Origin: a virus
DNA: 33,380 nucleotides
IMG/VR virus record: IMGVR_UViG_3300035698_010378
Location: 1 to 33,380 of that record
Reading direction: 5' to 3' (one strand)
Numbering within the stretch: position 1 is the first letter of the stretch; each line of letters opens with the position of its first letter. The notes beneath the pieces were generated by a model. That model was not told where the DNA came from, searched no databases, and was given only the letters and a program-made list of their open reading frames with translations. The translations under genes and the position numbers were made by a program. Below, in pieces: positions 5,229-33,144 of this stretch.

Positions 5229-5798
5229 ATGCCAAAAGGAGTTTATAAGCGTAGGAAAGTGTTGAAGCTTTCCGAAGAACATAAAAAAAAGATAAGTATA
5301 GGAATGACAGGAAGAAAGCTTAGTTTGGAGACTAGGTTCAACATAAGTAAGGGAAAACTGAAAATGTTTGATAAGAAATTAGGAAAAGGGAAGAGAAAAA
5401 CTCCAAAAGACAAATTAATTAAAAGGTCTTTAAGGTATAATTTACTAAAAGATGAAGTGCTTAAAAGGGATAATTATTTGTGTAGGGAGTGTTCATCAGA
5501 CAAAGATTTAATAGTACATCATATAAAATCTTGGAATAAATATCCAAAACTAAGATATGACATAAATAATATGTTAACCTTATGTCAGAGTTGCCACAGA
5601 AAGACAGATAATTATGGGAGAAGGTCAGCTGATAATAGGAGCAAGTATAATAAGAACAATACCTTTGAGAAAGAAATAATAAGACTTAGGGATAAGGGAA
5701 AAACATTCATGGAGATTAGAGATATTGTTAATCCTAATCTTAATCGTGATAATATAAAATATATTTATAATGCTGTTACTAAGGATAAAAGTTGTTAA
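5229..5798 (+). CDS. HNH homing endonuclease with NUMOD3 and C-terminal HTH
   Basis: The 189-residue product opens with a NUMOD3-type module (MPKGVYKRRK, then L-S-E-E-H-K-K-K-I-S). The HNH nuclease core lies at about residues 78-125: a C-R-E-C knuckle, the catalytic V-H-H-I, an N in the N-N-M-L-T-L turn and C-Q-S-C-H. A helix-turn-helix-like tail (about 140-185) probably adds sequence recognition. It is a free-standing mobile gene between a terminator-like hairpin and another HNH gene. Confidence 0.87.
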   Translation: MPKGVYKRRKVLKLSEEHKKKISIGMTGRKLSLETRFNISKGKLKMFDKKLGKGKRKTPKDKLIKRSLRYNLLKDEVLKRDNYLCRECSSDKDLIVHHIKSWNKYPKLRYDINNMLTLCQSCHRKTDNYGRRSADNRSKYNKNNTFEKEIIRLRDKGKTFMEIRDIVNPNLNRDNIKYIYNAVTKDKSC

Positions 5799-5840
5799 TA
5801 ACTTTTTCTTAAACCTTTAAATAAGCTACAAATGAGCCAC

Positions 5841-5868
5841 TTGATTTTTCTGAAATATATGCTATACT
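5841..5868 (+). promoter_or_regulatory. Sigma70-like promoter for the third HNH gene
   Basis: TTGATT (5841-5846) and TATACT (5863-5868) are separated by 16 bases. A transcript starting near 5875 would begin with the folded leader at 5895-5946 and reach the ATG at 5955. An open frame extends upstream through this promoter to 5832, but the promoter and leader argue that the extension is not translated. Confidence 0.5.
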
Positions 5869-5894
5869 TTTTATGCAGAAAAATAAAGATAAAT

Positions 5895-5946
5895 CTTCGT
5901 GCATACCCTTTTGGCTCTTCTCACGAAGTGGAGCCAGAATGGTATG
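5895..5946 (+). promoter_or_regulatory. Bistable leader hairpin before HNH gene
   Basis: Two nested stems, 5902-5907 with 5941-5946 and 5912-5917 with 5931-5936, make one fold. A competing 7-bp stem pairs 5895-5901 with 5922-5928. The fold ends 8 nt before the ATG at 5955. Such leaders commonly limit expression of phage homing endonucleases; the switching idea is inference. Confidence 0.5.
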
Positions 5947-5954
5947 AAAATAAA

Positions 5955-6356
5955 ATGGTTAATGCGTCTAGACATCAGATTGAAAAATATGGGAGGGAAA
6001 ATGTAGAAAAAGTTTTTAAGAGGGATAAGGTTTGTACAACTTGCGGAAATAATAAAAGATTAGCAATTCATCATATTGATGGAAATGGTATATATAAATA
6101 TTTAAGAAACGGATTAAAGTGTTCTGAAGCGAAGAAGCTAATTGATAATAATCCTGTTAATCTAAGATTGGTTTGTATAAGTTGCCATACTAAACTACAT
6201 AAAAACTGGGAGAAAAGAAAAAATAAAGGAGGGAAAGGAACTTCAAAGGCATATAAAAAAGGGAAAATAAGGGCAACAAGAAAGAAAATTGAATATTATC
6301 AAGTCTGGAATTACGATAAACTAATGTATGATGTTTTTACTAGAAGGTGTGTTTGA
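5955..6356 (+). CDS. HNH homing endonuclease
   Basis: The 133-residue product has an HNH core: V-C-T-T-C-G knuckle, catalytic I-H-H-I-D-G, an N-P-V-N-L-R turn and V-C-I-S-C-H closing, followed by a long basic tail (KKGKIRATRKK) for DNA contact. It belongs to a different HNH subtype from its neighbour, with a longer insert between the HH and N motifs. The start at 5955 is chosen because a promoter and folded leader lie just upstream; the frame is open back to 5832. It is a probable mobile gene inserted next to another one. Confidence 0.8.
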   Translation: MVNASRHQIEKYGRENVEKVFKRDKVCTTCGNNKRLAIHHIDGNGIYKYLRNGLKCSEAKKLIDNNPVNLRLVCISCHTKLHKNWEKRKNKGGKGTSKAYKKGKIRATRKKIEYYQVWNYDKLMYDVFTRRCV

Positions 6357-18491: not shown

Positions 18492-18752
18492 ATGACAAAT
18501 ATAGATCAGAATTACGAATATGTTTCTTTGGCTTATGACGGCTCTGATCCTGCTCCATTAAAAGTTGATCCTGTAACTGGAAGACTTTTAGTAGAGGTTC
18601 ACTTATTGGCAGCAGGTGAAACAACCATTAATTCAGCAGAAATAGATGAAAACAGAGAAGCAACGAGTTTAGCAGTTGGGGCCGATGGAGAGGCTTATCC
18701 TCTTCATATAGACAATAGAAATGATTTTTTATTAGTTGAAATAACGACATAA
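18492..18752 (+). CDS. Small tail-associated protein with two copies of a short module
   Basis: The 86-residue product contains two similar units: residues 4-36 (IDQN ... SLAYDG ... VDPVTGRLLVEV) and 51-84 (IDEN ... SLAVGADG ... IDNRNDFLLVEI). A third copy opens the following tail-fibre protein. It may be a fibre adaptor or trimerisation unit made as a separate chain. Four bases separate its stop from the next start. Confidence 0.5.
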   Translation: MTNIDQNYEYVSLAYDGSDPAPLKVDPVTGRLLVEVHLLAAGETTINSAEIDENREATSLAVGADGEAYPLHIDNRNDFLLVEITT

Positions 18753-18755
18753 AAT

Positions 18756-21035
18756 ATGGCTGAGGAAAATGCAAAAATTGATGATAATCGCAGACGTACC
18801 ATTCTTGGAGTTACTGATGATTCAAATGCAGAACTTAGAAGATTGCTAGTTGATGCAACAACTGGCAGACTTAAAGTTTCAGCAATTTTTTCTTCTGGCG
18901 CAATTGCTTCAATAAATGCCGATACTACTGCGGTTCAGACTTTAACAGTAGGTACTACTGGAACAGACTTTGCAATTGCTGATGATGCTTCTGGAGATCA
19001 TAAATTTAATCTTCCTACTGCTTCGACTACAAATAGAGGGGCTTTGAGTTCTGCTGATTGGGATACTTTTAATAGTAAGGCAGAAGCAGATCAAACAATG
19101 TATATTGGTACAACTGGCGTTGCTATTAATAGAGCTTCTGCAGCATTAACTCTTGCAGGAATTACTCTTACTACGCCTGATATTGGAACTCCAGCTGCAG
19201 GAACACTTACAAATTGTACATTCCCTACTCTTAATCAAAATACAACAGGAACAGCGGCTAATCTTTCAGGAACTCCAACATTGCCAGATGGAACATTAGC
19301 GGCAACTCAAGCTCCTGATGATAATTCAACCAAATTAGCAACTACTGCTTATGCTGATACTGCAGCTGCTGCTGGCGGTGCTACTGTAGCCTTAGATAGC
19401 TTAGCTAATGTAGCAATTAATGAAACTTTAGCATCAGATGCAGATAATACAGATGCACTACGAACTGCTGCCATAGGTTGGTCTGATTTATTTTTAGGTA
19501 ATGAAAGTGTAATAACTTGGAGCACTGCTCCATCAACAGCAGATGTAACATTAACTCACACTGCTAATTTACTTACATTTGCAGGTGGAACAATTGCATT
19601 AGGAACGGCAACTGCAACTGGTGGATTAACTGGAGATGTAACTGGAAATGCAACTGGAAGTTCAGGAAGTTGTACTGGCAATTCTGCAACCGCTACCTTA
19701 GCATCAACTATCACTGTTGATGCAACTACATCAGATACAAGTTGTTTTGTAGCTTTATTTGAATCAGCATCTGGTTCACTAGAACCGCAAACAGATGCTG
19801 GCTTAACATATAATGCAGATACAAATGAATTAACAGCAACAGCATTTGTAGGTGCATTAACAGGTAACGCTGATACAGTAACTAATGCAACGCTAACAAC
19901 CGCACTAACTGTAAATACTGGAACCTTAACTCTTACAGCTCACGCAGATAATGATTCTGTGCTTACGATAGGAAAGGGCGCGGTTTCAGTGAGTGGAGCA
20001 AATACAGGAGATGAAGTTGAAGCTTCTGGAGCAGAACTAGATACCGGAACAGATCAAACTAAATATGCTTCTGCTAAAGCGATTAAAGATTCGCATAATG
20101 TTCCCTCAGTTGTTCCGAGTACTGATGGAAATGTCTTAACCTCTAACGGAACCGATTGGGTTAGTGAAGCGGCTGCTGGTAGTTCAATTCTTACAACTTC
20201 TCACTATGCTCCAGAAGGATTTTTAATAAATGGAAAAATAGTTGTTACCGATGCTTCTGGAATTACTGTTGCTATAAAGGGTATGGATGGGAATGATCCT
20301 TCCGCTAGTAATATAGTTTATTGCCGAATTGGAGATACTGTTCGTACAATCACGGCTGCTCTTTCAGTCGCTAAAGCTGACGGAACTAATTGGTTTAATT
20401 CTGGAGGTGCAGAACTAGCAACTAAAGAAATAGATTATTTTGTTTATCTTGGTTACAACTCAACTGATGGGGTAGTTATCGGATTTTCACGTTATCCTGG
20501 CGCTAACAGTTATGATGACTTTTCAGTTACTACCACTAATAAAAAATATTGTGCAATTTCAACAATCACAAATGCTGCTGCAACTGATTATTATAATGTA
20601 ATTGGGAGATTTGCAGCTACTCTTTCAGCAGGAGCAGGATATACTTGGAGCGTTCCAGCTTTCACGGCTAAGAATCTTATTCAAAGACCGATTTATACGA
20701 CTCGTTGGTTAGTTTGGGTGGCTACTAAGACTTGGACTGCTGGAACTGACCCTGCGGGAACCCCATCGTTGTATGAAATATATAAAATTGAGAATGATAA
20801 GATTACAGTAATGTCTTCAGGAGGTAGTTGGAACGCTGGTGTAACTGTTACTCAATTACGATTATCACTTCCGTTTACTCCAAAGACTTCAAGGACAATT
20901 ATGACTACTGGAATGATAAACATTCCCAATAATCCTAATTTAAGCCAAGGACAGGTTTCGGGTACAACGGGGTATATTTATTGCACATCTGTATCAGCAA
21001 CAGCGCATAAATTTACGGCTATTTATAATATTTAA
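18756..21035 (+). CDS. Tail fibre protein
   Basis: The 759-residue product opens with a copy of the short module (IDDN ... TILGV ... VDATTGRLKVSAI, residues 8-44). A long Ala/Thr/Gly/Asn-rich fibre body follows, with repeats such as TGDVTGNATGSSG and L-T-S-N-G-T-D-W-V-S-E, then a beta-rich C-terminal domain (from about 490) with aromatic clusters likely to bind the host surface. Low-complexity body and lack of membrane segments fit a trimeric receptor-binding fibre. Confidence 0.75.
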   Translation: MAEENAKIDDNRRRTILGVTDDSNAELRRLLVDATTGRLKVSAIFSSGAIASINADTTAVQTLTVGTTGTDFAIADDASGDHKFNLPTASTTNRGALSSADWDTFNSKAEADQTMYIGTTGVAINRASAALTLAGITLTTPDIGTPAAGTLTNCTFPTLNQNTTGTAANLSGTPTLPDGTLAATQAPDDNSTKLATTAYADTAAAAGGATVALDSLANVAINETLASDADNTDALRTAAIGWSDLFLGNESVITWSTAPSTADVTLTHTANLLTFAGGTIALGTATATGGLTGDVTGNATGSSGSCTGNSATATLASTITVDATTSDTSCFVALFESASGSLEPQTDAGLTYNADTNELTATAFVGALTGNADTVTNATLTTALTVNTGTLTLTAHADNDSVLTIGKGAVSVSGANTGDEVEASGAELDTGTDQTKYASAKAIKDSHNVPSVVPSTDGNVLTSNGTDWVSEAAAGSSILTTSHYAPEGFLINGKIVVTDASGITVAIKGMDGNDPSASNIVYCRIGDTVRTITAALSVAKADGTNWFNSGGAELATKEIDYFVYLGYNSTDGVVIGFSRYPGANSYDDFSVTTTNKKYCAISTITNAAATDYYNVIGRFAATLSAGAGYTWSVPAFTAKNLIQRPIYTTRWLVWVATKTWTAGTDPAGTPSLYEIYKIENDKITVMSSGGSWNAGVTVTQLRLSLPFTPKTSRTIMTTGMINIPNNPNLSQGQVSGTTGYIYCTSVSATAHKFTAIYNI

Positions 21036-25796: not shown

Positions 25797-26192
25797 ATGG
25801 CATTTTTTGATCAACTTAATGCATTAAAGAATAGAGTTGGAGGCGGCATATCCTCCTCTTTTCAACGTGCTGAAAAAGATGATTCTTGGATGGGACGAGC
25901 TCTAAGATTTGCTAAAAGCAATGCTACGCCTCTTGATTTTGTTTCAGGACAATTAAAGAAAACAGATTATTTTAAGCCAACTGATACCCTAAGAACTCGA
26001 GATATTGTAAGAGAATTACCAGCCGGACTTAATGTTGGAGCAAAAGAAACTGCAAAGGCAATTCCAGAATATGCAACTAGATTTGGAATATCTGCTGCTG
26101 AAGTTCCCGGAACTCTAAGAACAGGGAAAGCTACAGGAAAATATTATAAAACTCCTTTCGGCAAATTAGGATCTTTTCAGACTGAAGCTTAA
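25797..26192 (+). CDS. N-terminal part of giant internal virion protein, cut by in-frame TAA
   Basis: The 131 residues read as the natural N-terminus of the following giant protein (begins MAFFDQLNALKN; ends L-G-S-F-Q-T-E-A). The frame stops at TAA 26190-26192 and then continues open, in the same frame, for more than 1,250 codons. A one-base change would make it CAA (Gln), giving T-E-A-Q-A-R-T-E-R-G. The protein may be truncated, read through, or a sequencing artefact. Confidence 0.65.
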   Translation: MAFFDQLNALKNRVGGGISSSFQRAEKDDSWMGRALRFAKSNATPLDFVSGQLKKTDYFKPTDTLRTRDIVRELPAGLNVGAKETAKAIPEYATRFGISAAEVPGTLRTGKATGKYYKTPFGKLGSFQTEA

Positions 26193-26255
26193 GCGCGAAC
26201 AGAAAGAGGAGATCCTTTATGGAAAGCCATTGGTAATCCAGCTTTAGATACTATC

Positions 26256-29200
26256 TTGGCAGCTGGTGGTGTTGGATTAGTAGCTAAATTATTTACCGGA
26301 GCTTTAAAGGGAAGCGGAATTAAGGCGCTTCAAAATTTATCTCACGACTTAACTACTCCGATTAAAGGAAAGTTAGATATTAAGTCTGTTAAATTTAATT
26401 TAGATGGCTGGAAGAGTATTGATGAGATAGAAGAATCTGTTATAGCTGCCAATAAAAAAGCAGGCAATCGCCCTATGTTTTATGAAGATGTTAGAAAGGA
26501 AGCTAGGAGATTAGCAGAAGCATCTGAAGTAAAAGTTTTCAAAAAAGAAGTTCCTAAGTATGGTTTTAAATATAAAAGTGGACTTCTAAAGGGCTTAAAT
26601 AAGCCCGGTCTTTCAGTAGAGGATGTGTCAAAAGGCAAGAAGGCTATTCCTAAAAAAGAACCAAAGGGTTCTGCTGGTAAAATATTCGGAAAACAAGAGT
26701 ATGCAAAAGAGTTAGCAAGAAAAAAAGGGGTTATAGTAGAAAAAAATGATCCAGCAATAAATAGATTTGAGTTTAATAATTCCAACGAAAAAACTGAAAC
26801 ATTGAGAGCATTGGATGCTTATAATGGATATGTTAGAAAAGACTTTCCAGTAGGAGAGATATTTAATAAAATAGAAAACTCATACGGAAAAAATTTCAGA
26901 GACAACATTGAAGATATTATAAAATTAAAGCTCTCTCAACCTAAAAAAGTCCCTAAAAAAGGACTCCTACAAGTAGCAAGAGAAGAAAAGATTATTCGTG
27001 ATAAACTTCAAAAAAGCACTCCTCGTCCGTTTGCTGGCAAAAAGACGGGTCCTCTTTTACAAGATATAAAGCCCAAACCAAAAGAGGGGTTATTACAAGC
27101 ACAAAAAATAGATAAATCAAAAAGTCTTTCATATACTGACAACGTAGCACAAACAGAGAAAAAGTCAATACAAATAGCAGATAAGGTTCTTACTTCTCCA
27201 GCAGAAACAACTCCTGCAAAAACAGGAGTATTCAATCGCGCCATAGGAGCATACAGGCGAAGTTGGACTAAAATTCGAGAAGCTGTTCAAGATGATTGGA
27301 TTAGGGTGAAAAATCTTCAAAGAGATAAGAATGTAAATATAGATAAAAAAGCCCTTAATCCTTACGAGGCTGAGACTTTATTTCACGGGAGAGTAGCAAC
27401 AAGAATAACTGAAGCAGATGATGTTGTTAAGAATATAGACAAAGATCTTCTAAAAACTTCTAAAGATTTGAAGATACCAGACAAAGAATTCAAGTCTGAT
27501 ATTTATAATTATCTTATTGCAAAGCACGCCCCTGAAAGAAATCTTGCACTTGGAGAAAAGGCTGCCGGTATAACTACTAGAGAAGCTAGTGAGCTTTTAG
27601 CTAAGATAAAATCCAAGCCTCATTTTAAAGAAATAGAAAGAGTTTCAAAAGATATAAAGACAATGAATGATAAAGTTTTGGATATTCTTCACGATTCACA
27701 AGTAATAGATGATGGACTTTACAATACATTAAGAAATAAATACAAAGAGCATATTCCACTTAATAGAATAATGGATGAAACAGAAGATATTGGAGGAATT
27801 CTTTCAAGCAAGGGCTTTTCAGTCAAAGGGACAGGAATAAAAAGAGCAAAGGGAAGTGAAAGAGAAATAGATGATGTCTTTAAAAATGTTGTTTCTAATT
27901 ACAAGCAAGCCATTATTAGGGCAGAAAAAAATAGAGTTGATTTAGCAACTCTTAATTTTGCACGAAAGAATAGAAACTTAGGAATATTTGAAGAAATAAA
28001 ACCAAAAGCAATAGGAGAAACTTTTGATGGAAAGCCAATATTACAGGAAGTTAAAGATCCTCTCGTTTTGACTATTAGAGAAAATGGCAAGCCTGTTTAT
28101 TTGAAAATAAAAGATGAAGGTCTAGCAAGGGCATATCAAGGATTAGGCAGAGATAAGATGCCAGCACTATTTAAGTTTGTAGGTTCATTTACTAGATTTT
28201 ATTCCGGACTAGCAACTCGCTTTAATCCGGAGTTTGCTTTTTCTAATAAAGTAAGAGATATTCAAGAAATGGCTGTCTATATGGCTTCTGAAAAAGGAAT
28301 AGGCTTTACTGGTGCTGCTAAAACAACACTTAGGGATTCTGTTAGTATGAAAAATGTCTTTGATTTTATTAGAGGAAAGAATACTCCCGGAGCAAAACTT
28401 TATAGGCAAATGCAAATGGATGGAGGAACTACTGGTGGAATGGCTTTATCAACTAAGAAACAAGTAGAACTAGATTTGGAAAGTATATCAAAAATAAACA
28501 GAAGCAATCCAAAAAAAGCAGCTAAGTATGCGATTGAAAAAATTGATCAATGGAATACTGTCTTTGAAGATTCAACTCGTTTGTCTGTCTATAAGACTGC
28601 CCTAGACAGAGGAATGAGCAGAAATGAATCAGCTCTTTTGGCAAAAAATGCTACATTGAATTTCAATAAAAAAGGGACTGGAGGAGCTATAATAAATTCT
28701 TTATATATGTTTTCCAATGCTTCAATACAAGGATCAGCAAAATTACTTAAAGCAATGAAGAATCCAAAAGTAGCTGCAGCTACTACTAGTGCTGTTGGAA
28801 CTGCTGTATTTACAGTGAATAAATGGAATGATAGCGTTGATGAAAATTGGAGGGATAAAGTTTCAAAGTGGGATAGAAATAGCAATCTAGCAGTAATGTA
28901 CCCAACAAAAGAAGGTGTTAAATATTTTACGATTCCAGTTTCTTGGGGAATAAAGCCAATCAAAGTAGCAGCTGACTATGCCTATGACGCAACTGCTGGC
29001 AAGTTAAAAGGTGGAGTTGCAGAAGCTACAAAAGGAATAATGGGAGCTGCTTTTGATGCCTATAATCCAACTGGCGGAACTGATATAACAGGGGCTATAA
29101 CTCCTACCATTTTAGATGTTCCAACTGAAATTTCAAGAAATAAGAAATGGAGTGGATCACAATTAAAGCCAGAAGAACAAAAGGGTGTCAAAGAGAGTCA

Positions 29201-29966
29201 AAGATTTTTCCAAAGCAAAGAAGGCGCGCCGTCAGACAAATCAGTAACATTCGATGTATTTAGGAAAGCAACTGAAAAATTTTCAAAAGTTGGAATTGAA
29301 ATTAGTCCTGCTGATATTAAATATGCTTATGATCAGTATATAGGTGGAGCCGGAAGAAGTGTTGTAGGTACAGTTGAAACTATGAAATCTGCTATTAACA
29401 AAGAAGTGCCACAAGCAAGGCAGACTCCATTCATTAGAAGATTCTACAAATCAAAAACTGAAGAAGAAGTCGAAAAGTCGAGTTACTATAATGAGAAAAA
29501 TGCATTTTTTGAAGAAATGAAAAAGCTTCCTGAAGGAGAAGAGAAGCTACAGAAAATACAGGATTATGTTATGACATTCCCAAGCGAAAGAAGATCAGGA
29601 TTATTGTATGGCTTAATGCAAGAAGGACTTTCTACTAAGGGAGTATCTTCTTCTTTGAATGTAGTTAAGGCTCGCGAGATAGTCCAATTGCCTTCCAATG
29701 AAAGGCTAAAAAGATTAAGAGAAGAAAGAAGGAGAGATCCTAAATTTATAGCTGCATATAAGAAAGCCCTAAAAGAGAAAGATTTTACTCGAGATGAATT
29801 AGACTTGAAGAATAGTTCGACAAGTAAAAGAGCAGAACATATTAAGGCTGAAATGGAAGGAATGAGTGATAATGAAAAGTCAAAATATAGGCTAGATTTA
29901 ATCAAAAAAGGAATACTAACTAAGGAAGTTTTAAGAAAATTGAAGCAATTAATTCTAAATAAATAG
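26256..29966 (+). CDS. Giant ejection/internal virion protein, LPD38-like
   Basis: The frame is open from 26193; 26256 is a TTG, the first plausible start. The 1,236 residues are helical with linker segments. About residues 640-835 resemble the polyvalent-protein-associated LPD38 domain: R-F-Y-S-G-L-A-T-R-F-N-P-E-F-A, then E-D-S-T-R-L-S-V-Y, and N-A-T-L-N-F-N-K-K-G-T-G before a hydrophobic N-A-S-I-Q-G segment. Such giant proteins travel in the head and enter the host with the DNA. The C-terminus is strongly charged. No SD or ATG lies at a good place for independent start, so the 25797 frame is probably its true beginning. Confidence 0.7.
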   Translation: MAAGGVGLVAKLFTGALKGSGIKALQNLSHDLTTPIKGKLDIKSVKFNLDGWKSIDEIEESVIAANKKAGNRPMFYEDVRKEARRLAEASEVKVFKKEVPKYGFKYKSGLLKGLNKPGLSVEDVSKGKKAIPKKEPKGSAGKIFGKQEYAKELARKKGVIVEKNDPAINRFEFNNSNEKTETLRALDAYNGYVRKDFPVGEIFNKIENSYGKNFRDNIEDIIKLKLSQPKKVPKKGLLQVAREEKIIRDKLQKSTPRPFAGKKTGPLLQDIKPKPKEGLLQAQKIDKSKSLSYTDNVAQTEKKSIQIADKVLTSPAETTPAKTGVFNRAIGAYRRSWTKIREAVQDDWIRVKNLQRDKNVNIDKKALNPYEAETLFHGRVATRITEADDVVKNIDKDLLKTSKDLKIPDKEFKSDIYNYLIAKHAPERNLALGEKAAGITTREASELLAKIKSKPHFKEIERVSKDIKTMNDKVLDILHDSQVIDDGLYNTLRNKYKEHIPLNRIMDETEDIGGILSSKGFSVKGTGIKRAKGSEREIDDVFKNVVSNYKQAIIRAEKNRVDLATLNFARKNRNLGIFEEIKPKAIGETFDGKPILQEVKDPLVLTIRENGKPVYLKIKDEGLARAYQGLGRDKMPALFKFVGSFTRFYSGLATRFNPEFAFSNKVRDIQEMAVYMASEKGIGFTGAAKTTLRDSVSMKNVFDFIRGKNTPGAKLYRQMQMDGGTTGGMALSTKKQVELDLESISKINRSNPKKAAKYAIEKIDQWNTVFEDSTRLSVYKTALDRGMSRNESALLAKNATLNFNKKGTGGAIINSLYMFSNASIQGSAKLLKAMKNPKVAAATTSAVGTAVFTVNKWNDSVDENWRDKVSKWDRNSNLAVMYPTKEGVKYFTIPVSWGIKPIKVAADYAYDATAGKLKGGVAEATKGIMGAAFDAYNPTGGTDITGAITPTILDVPTEISRNKKWSGSQLKPEEQKGVKESQRFFQSKEGAPSDKSVTFDVFRKATEKFSKVGIEISPADIKYAYDQYIGGAGRSVVGTVETMKSAINKEVPQARQTPFIRRFYKSKTEEEVEKSSYYNEKNAFFEEMKKLPEGEEKLQKIQDYVMTFPSERRSGLLYGLMQEGLSTKGVSSSLNVVKAREIVQLPSNERLKRLREERRRDPKFIAAYKKALKEKDFTRDELDLKNSSTSKRAEHIKAEMEGMSDNEKSKYRLDLIKKGILTKEVLRKLKQLILNK

Positions 29967-32649: not shown

Positions 32650-33144
32650 ATGAAGAAGTGTAAACATTGCGGAAAAGAAACAGAAAACTGGAGAAAAATA
32701 AAAGTTAGGGGAAAAATTTATTTTGCTGGTAGATGTCGAAAATGTGAGGCTAAAAATACTAAAAAATGGATTAAAGATAACCCAGAGAAATTTAAAAAAA
32801 TACAGTTAAAATATCGGAGAAAGACCCAGCAGCCTAGTAAGAAAGGTATATGCAGAGGAGAAGAAAAATATTATCAGGCTTTCAAAAGAAAATATGGGAT
32901 ATCATATATAACATCTAGAAAATTTGGTGTTAAAAAAGTAAATAAAATTTTTAGTAAGTTTAGATATAAATGTGCAATATGTAATTCTAAAAAAGGGCTA
33001 TGTATTCACCACAGAGACGAAGTAGGTTTCGGAAATTGCAAAAAGCTAAATAAACCAGTCAATAATAATCTAGATAATTTATTGCTGGTATGTAGAAAAT
33101 GCCATATGATTATTCACGATAATCTTGGCACTACAAAAAAATAA
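32650..33144 (+). CDS. HNH endonuclease with N-terminal zinc ribbon
   Basis: The 164-residue product opens with a zinc ribbon (C-K-H-C-G ... C-R-K-C), continues with a basic helical linker, and ends in an HNH core: K-C-A-I-C, C-I-H-H-R-D, N-N-L-D-N-L-L-L-V-C-R-K-C-H. The arrangement is like the product of 31653-32102, although the cores differ. It has its own promoter-like sequence and a dyad just before the ATG. It is probably a free-standing homing endonuclease. Confidence 0.83.
   Translation: MKKCKHCGKETENWRKIKVRGKIYFAGRCRKCEAKNTKKWIKDNPEKFKKIQLKYRRKTQQPSKKGICRGEEKYYQAFKRKYGISYITSRKFGVKKVNKIFSKFRYKCAICNSKKGLCIHHRDEVGFGNCKKLNKPVNNNLDNLLLVCRKCHMIIHDNLGTTKK

Follow-up and report, generated by a model that had tools for sequence, protein, structure and literature searches.

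Phage-type polyvalent proteins with an LPD38 domain (PF18857) have been described by Iyer et al. (2017; PMC5512222), and in the Bcep22-like phage JC1 the domain is carried by gp69 (PMC9144972). The gene studied here lies in a stretch of viral DNA of 33,380 nucleotides, analysed as a whole and called the window below (positions 1 to 33,380 of IMG/VR record IMGVR_UViG_3300035698_010378). Like the giant proteins that Bcep22-like phages and Stx-converting podoviruses encode, its product is of giant size, carries LPD38 in the C-terminal third and is encoded next to virion genes, but the gene is smaller (about 1390 codons) and in this assembly contains one internal TAA. A tblastn search against named phages gave matches in Escherichia/Stx phages (27% identity over 55%) and also in Burkholderia and Vibrio phages, while the same search with the N-terminal part gave nothing significant.

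The giant gene and its neighbourhood

Translation of positions 25797-29966 from the ATG at 25797 gives 131 codons, the TAA at 26190-26192 and then, with no shift of frame, another 1257 codons before the TAG at 29964-29966. The parts of the gene are as follows.

25797-26189, plus strand: the 131 codons ahead of the stop, N-terminal part of the LPD38 giant gene, with 61% identical pieces in one relative (G005) and about 43% identity in two others (L049 and L050); no PHROGs family covers these residues
26190-26192, plus strand: in-frame TAA, with CAA (Gln) in three relatives, from the translation and the relatives' alignments
26193-29966, plus strand: the same frame continued, 1257 codons and the TAG, with LPD38 at residues 885-1081 of this part; open in 13 of 14 relatives

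The long open frame cannot be a chance product at this composition. At the same composition a random frame would have a stop at about 8.3% of its codons; 1257 open codons would then arise by chance with a probability of about 5e-48, and the other frames of the giant gene contain 3-12% stops. In relatives, the two flanks of the TAA align to a single uninterrupted protein with no insertion or deletion at the stop position, and these single-frame alignments together with the translation confirm the first-pass annotation in its claim that the two sides share one frame.

The only domain that Pfam finds in the 1257 residues after the stop is LPD38 (E 2e-23; 83.9 bits against a cut-off of 27), the remainder matching long PHROGs families of unknown function; a search of solved structures gave no match. 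Upstream on the same strand are genes for terminase (8664), portal (10808), capsid (13788) and an SU10-type adaptor (21140). With the domain above the Pfam cut-off and the gene near late virion genes, the product belongs, judged by its sequence, to the LPD38-type "polyvalent" proteins of phages. The earlier label of "internal virion protein" is plausible, since the LPD38 domain is present and the gene follows those for portal, capsid and adaptor. The capsid protein of the window is closest to that of a TM7 (Saccharibacteria) phage, a likeness that does not establish the host of the window phage.

Elsewhere in the window there are three HNH endonuclease-like genes (5229-6356 and 32650-33144), and a motif, N[SA]xIDxNRxxTxLxVxxD, occurs both where the ORF at 18492-18752 ends and where that at 18756 starts, a single ORF of L011 aligning over both (window 18492-18850).

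The stop position in related phages

Relatives were collected in three ways. A terminase search of viral contigs gave 23 contigs at 44-83% identity, two of which contain the giant gene (G001 and G005); a degenerate DNA pattern for GDPLWKAIGN added the contigs L049 and L050; and an alignment search found additional relatives, giving 15 loci with the C-terminal part (L034-L048), G001 and G005 included. A protein search of the viral contigs with the 1257-residue part or the 131-residue part as single query found no relative. G001 (IMGVR 3300033148_002824, also L033) and G005 (IMGVR 3300031949_000100, also L032) resemble the window in terminases of one lineage that are 80-81% identical, in the same gene neighbourhood and in an LPD38 part of about 50-55% identity. 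Unlike the window gene, the giant gene of G001 is an intact single frame of 1524 codons, and that of G005 has CAA at the position of the stop codon but its own frameshift about 900 codons in.

All three relatives that align over the site, namely G005/L032, L049 (3300038475_000012) and L050 (3300035670_000448), have CAA (Gln) at the stop position, and in each of these independent viral contigs both sides of the site are in one open frame. A CAA at this codon in related phages had been predicted beforehand; it was looked for and is what these relatives carry. The G005 protein, 61-64% identical over the site, reads FQTEA-Q-LRVKRGDPLWKAIGNPA, and the L049 and L050 proteins read FQSEA-Q-NRVQRGDPLWKAIGNPA. 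The stop thus replaces an invariant glutamine in the best conserved block, FQ[ST]EA-Q-x-R-x-x-RGDPLWKAIGNPA, of an N-terminal module (YFxPTxxxRxRDxxRExP ... FQxEAQxRxxRGDPLWKAIGNPAxDT; window 25797-26330) which is common to the giant proteins of L049, L050 and L032. The match of L049 and L050 to the window is confined to this N-terminal part. Most relatives align only from about residue 400, the N-terminal region being variable. The C-terminal LPD38 part is one open frame, of 1010-3259 codons, in 13 of 14 relatives, a conservative count since L041 runs to the edge of its contig; the only relative with a split C-terminal part is G005, where the frameshift is far from the window's stop position. 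Neither a two-gene arrangement nor a gene boundary at the stop position was found among the relatives.

G005 has its break at L032:3920-3960, with TTT TAA C in place of the bases that continue as MFSNASIQ in the window and in G001. The break resembles a 2-base deletion, although TTT-TAA-C is also like a +1 slip site, and slippage by +1 there would bring back the reading frame with one Ser missing. Of the three closest giant genes, two have a break, and the positions differ.

The coding constraint is similar on both sides of the TAA. Compared with G005, codons 133-228, the stretch from the TAA to ATG 26475, differ by 0.32, 0.15 and 0.47 at positions 1, 2 and 3 and the codons before the stop by 0.33, 0.16 and 0.46, with amino-acid identities of 0.62 and 0.64, respectively. 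A C-to-T change could create a stop at 45 codons of the giant gene, and 689 of its approximately 12,500 single-base changes (about 5.5%) would do so; the downstream frame of 3.8 kb contains zero further stops. More would be expected had selection long been absent there, and their lack puts the unconstrained substitutions that followed the break at fewer than about 54 (about 1.4%). Because the stretch from the stop to the next in-frame ATG is as constrained as the upstream codons, and because a second downstream stop is missing, we infer that the stop either arose very recently or does not exist in the real phage, a mutation not datable more finely with the closest relative over the site only about 62% identical.

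Restart, read-through and the genetic code

Two ATG codons after the stop are relevant to a possible restart.

26219-26236, plus strand: out-of-frame mini-ORF ATGGAAAGCCATTGGTAA (M-E-S-H-W-stop), with a good Shine-Dalgarno and then ATG
26475-26477, plus strand: first in-frame ATG past the stop, a weak restart candidate with a weak Shine-Dalgarno (-4.9 kcal/mol)

The first-pass annotation had stated that no ATG or usable Shine-Dalgarno restart lies nearby. The good Shine-Dalgarno and ATG at 26219 go against this, but that ATG is out of frame, and in the reading frame of the giant gene the first start codon is the TTG at 26256. The mini-ORF is probably fortuitous because its bases follow from conserved RGDPLWKAIGNP codons. 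Gene starts in the window are mostly without a strong Shine-Dalgarno (median near 0 kcal/mol, weaker than at random window positions), and the absence of such a site is therefore weak evidence either way.

With a restart at TTG 26256 or ATG 26475, two products would be made: a peptide of 131 residues, and a protein of about 1160-1236 residues in which the LPD38 part is retained. Both codons are in frame, a start is possible without a strong Shine-Dalgarno when most genes of the window begin so, and the N-terminal region is variable among the relatives. We nevertheless regard such an arrangement as improbable: no relative has two genes split at this position, the stop interrupts the N-terminal module where it is best conserved, and protein-level conservation over the 96 codons preceding ATG 26475 is as strong as before the stop, which a long-standing ATG restart would not maintain. 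A restart downstream of the TAA may have been acquired recently. A broader version, in which the LPD38 protein has been divided by a lineage-specific ochre stop into two products, a small N-terminal one and a large one with its own start, and in which partial read-through connects the two in some virions, appears very unlikely.

Regulated read-through of the TAA, producing a minority full-length virion protein, is harder still to credit. The frame is maintained on both sides and the RNA round the stop can pair into a stem of about 11 base pairs, but its fold is not unusual (z -1.46, with 18 of 200 shuffles as good; other segments gave z -0.2 to -0.3). A suppressor tRNA was considered as well, but no tRNA gene was found in the window, and the recoded phages of PMC11210395 reassign TAG or TGA, not TAA. 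Nor do the relatives support programmed read-through: with CAA in all three that align over the site, none has the stop, and there is nothing conserved to regulate.

TAA terminates 28 of the 47 listed ORFs, including conserved ones (12604, 13759, 14792, 17337 and 22039). In an alignment of the ORFs of all collected relatives to the window, no stop but TAA 26190 fell in frame inside a conserved gene, the other stop matches in the scan being gene ends or wrong-frame ORF alignments. This agrees with the earlier view that TAA is not generally reassigned, and a recoded phage was rejected on the same two observations. Reassignment of TAA, e.g. to Gln, in the window phage or its host can thus practically be dismissed, even if relatives carry Gln at exactly this codon.

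Nature of the interrupted gene

Very probably, the locus is a normal single-frame LPD38 giant gene with a CAA-to-TAA change, recent or present only in the consensus, in this one assembled genome. All observations are accounted for by such a point change in a single consensus derived from a metagenome. The phage would be podovirus-like and its LPD38 "polyvalent" protein a normal giant product of a single frame, with the conserved glutamine codon 132 turned into TAA by one C-to-T change. If this change is in the phage, translation would end after 131 residues, the LPD38 part would be lost or made at trace level, and the genome would be that of a variant that is defective or in the minority. With a consensus error, on the other hand, the phage would make the full protein. 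Among the options originally proposed, a nonsense mutation or a sequencing error fits the CAA of the relatives, and read-through control does not fit the lack of a stop in relatives, of an unusual fold and of a tRNA gene or the use of TAA as an ordinary terminator.

TAA 26190 provides no evidence for recoding and most likely does not represent a new kind of translational control. Its consequence is for annotation: automatic gene callers will split the giant gene in two, and the N-terminal module belongs to the LPD38 protein.
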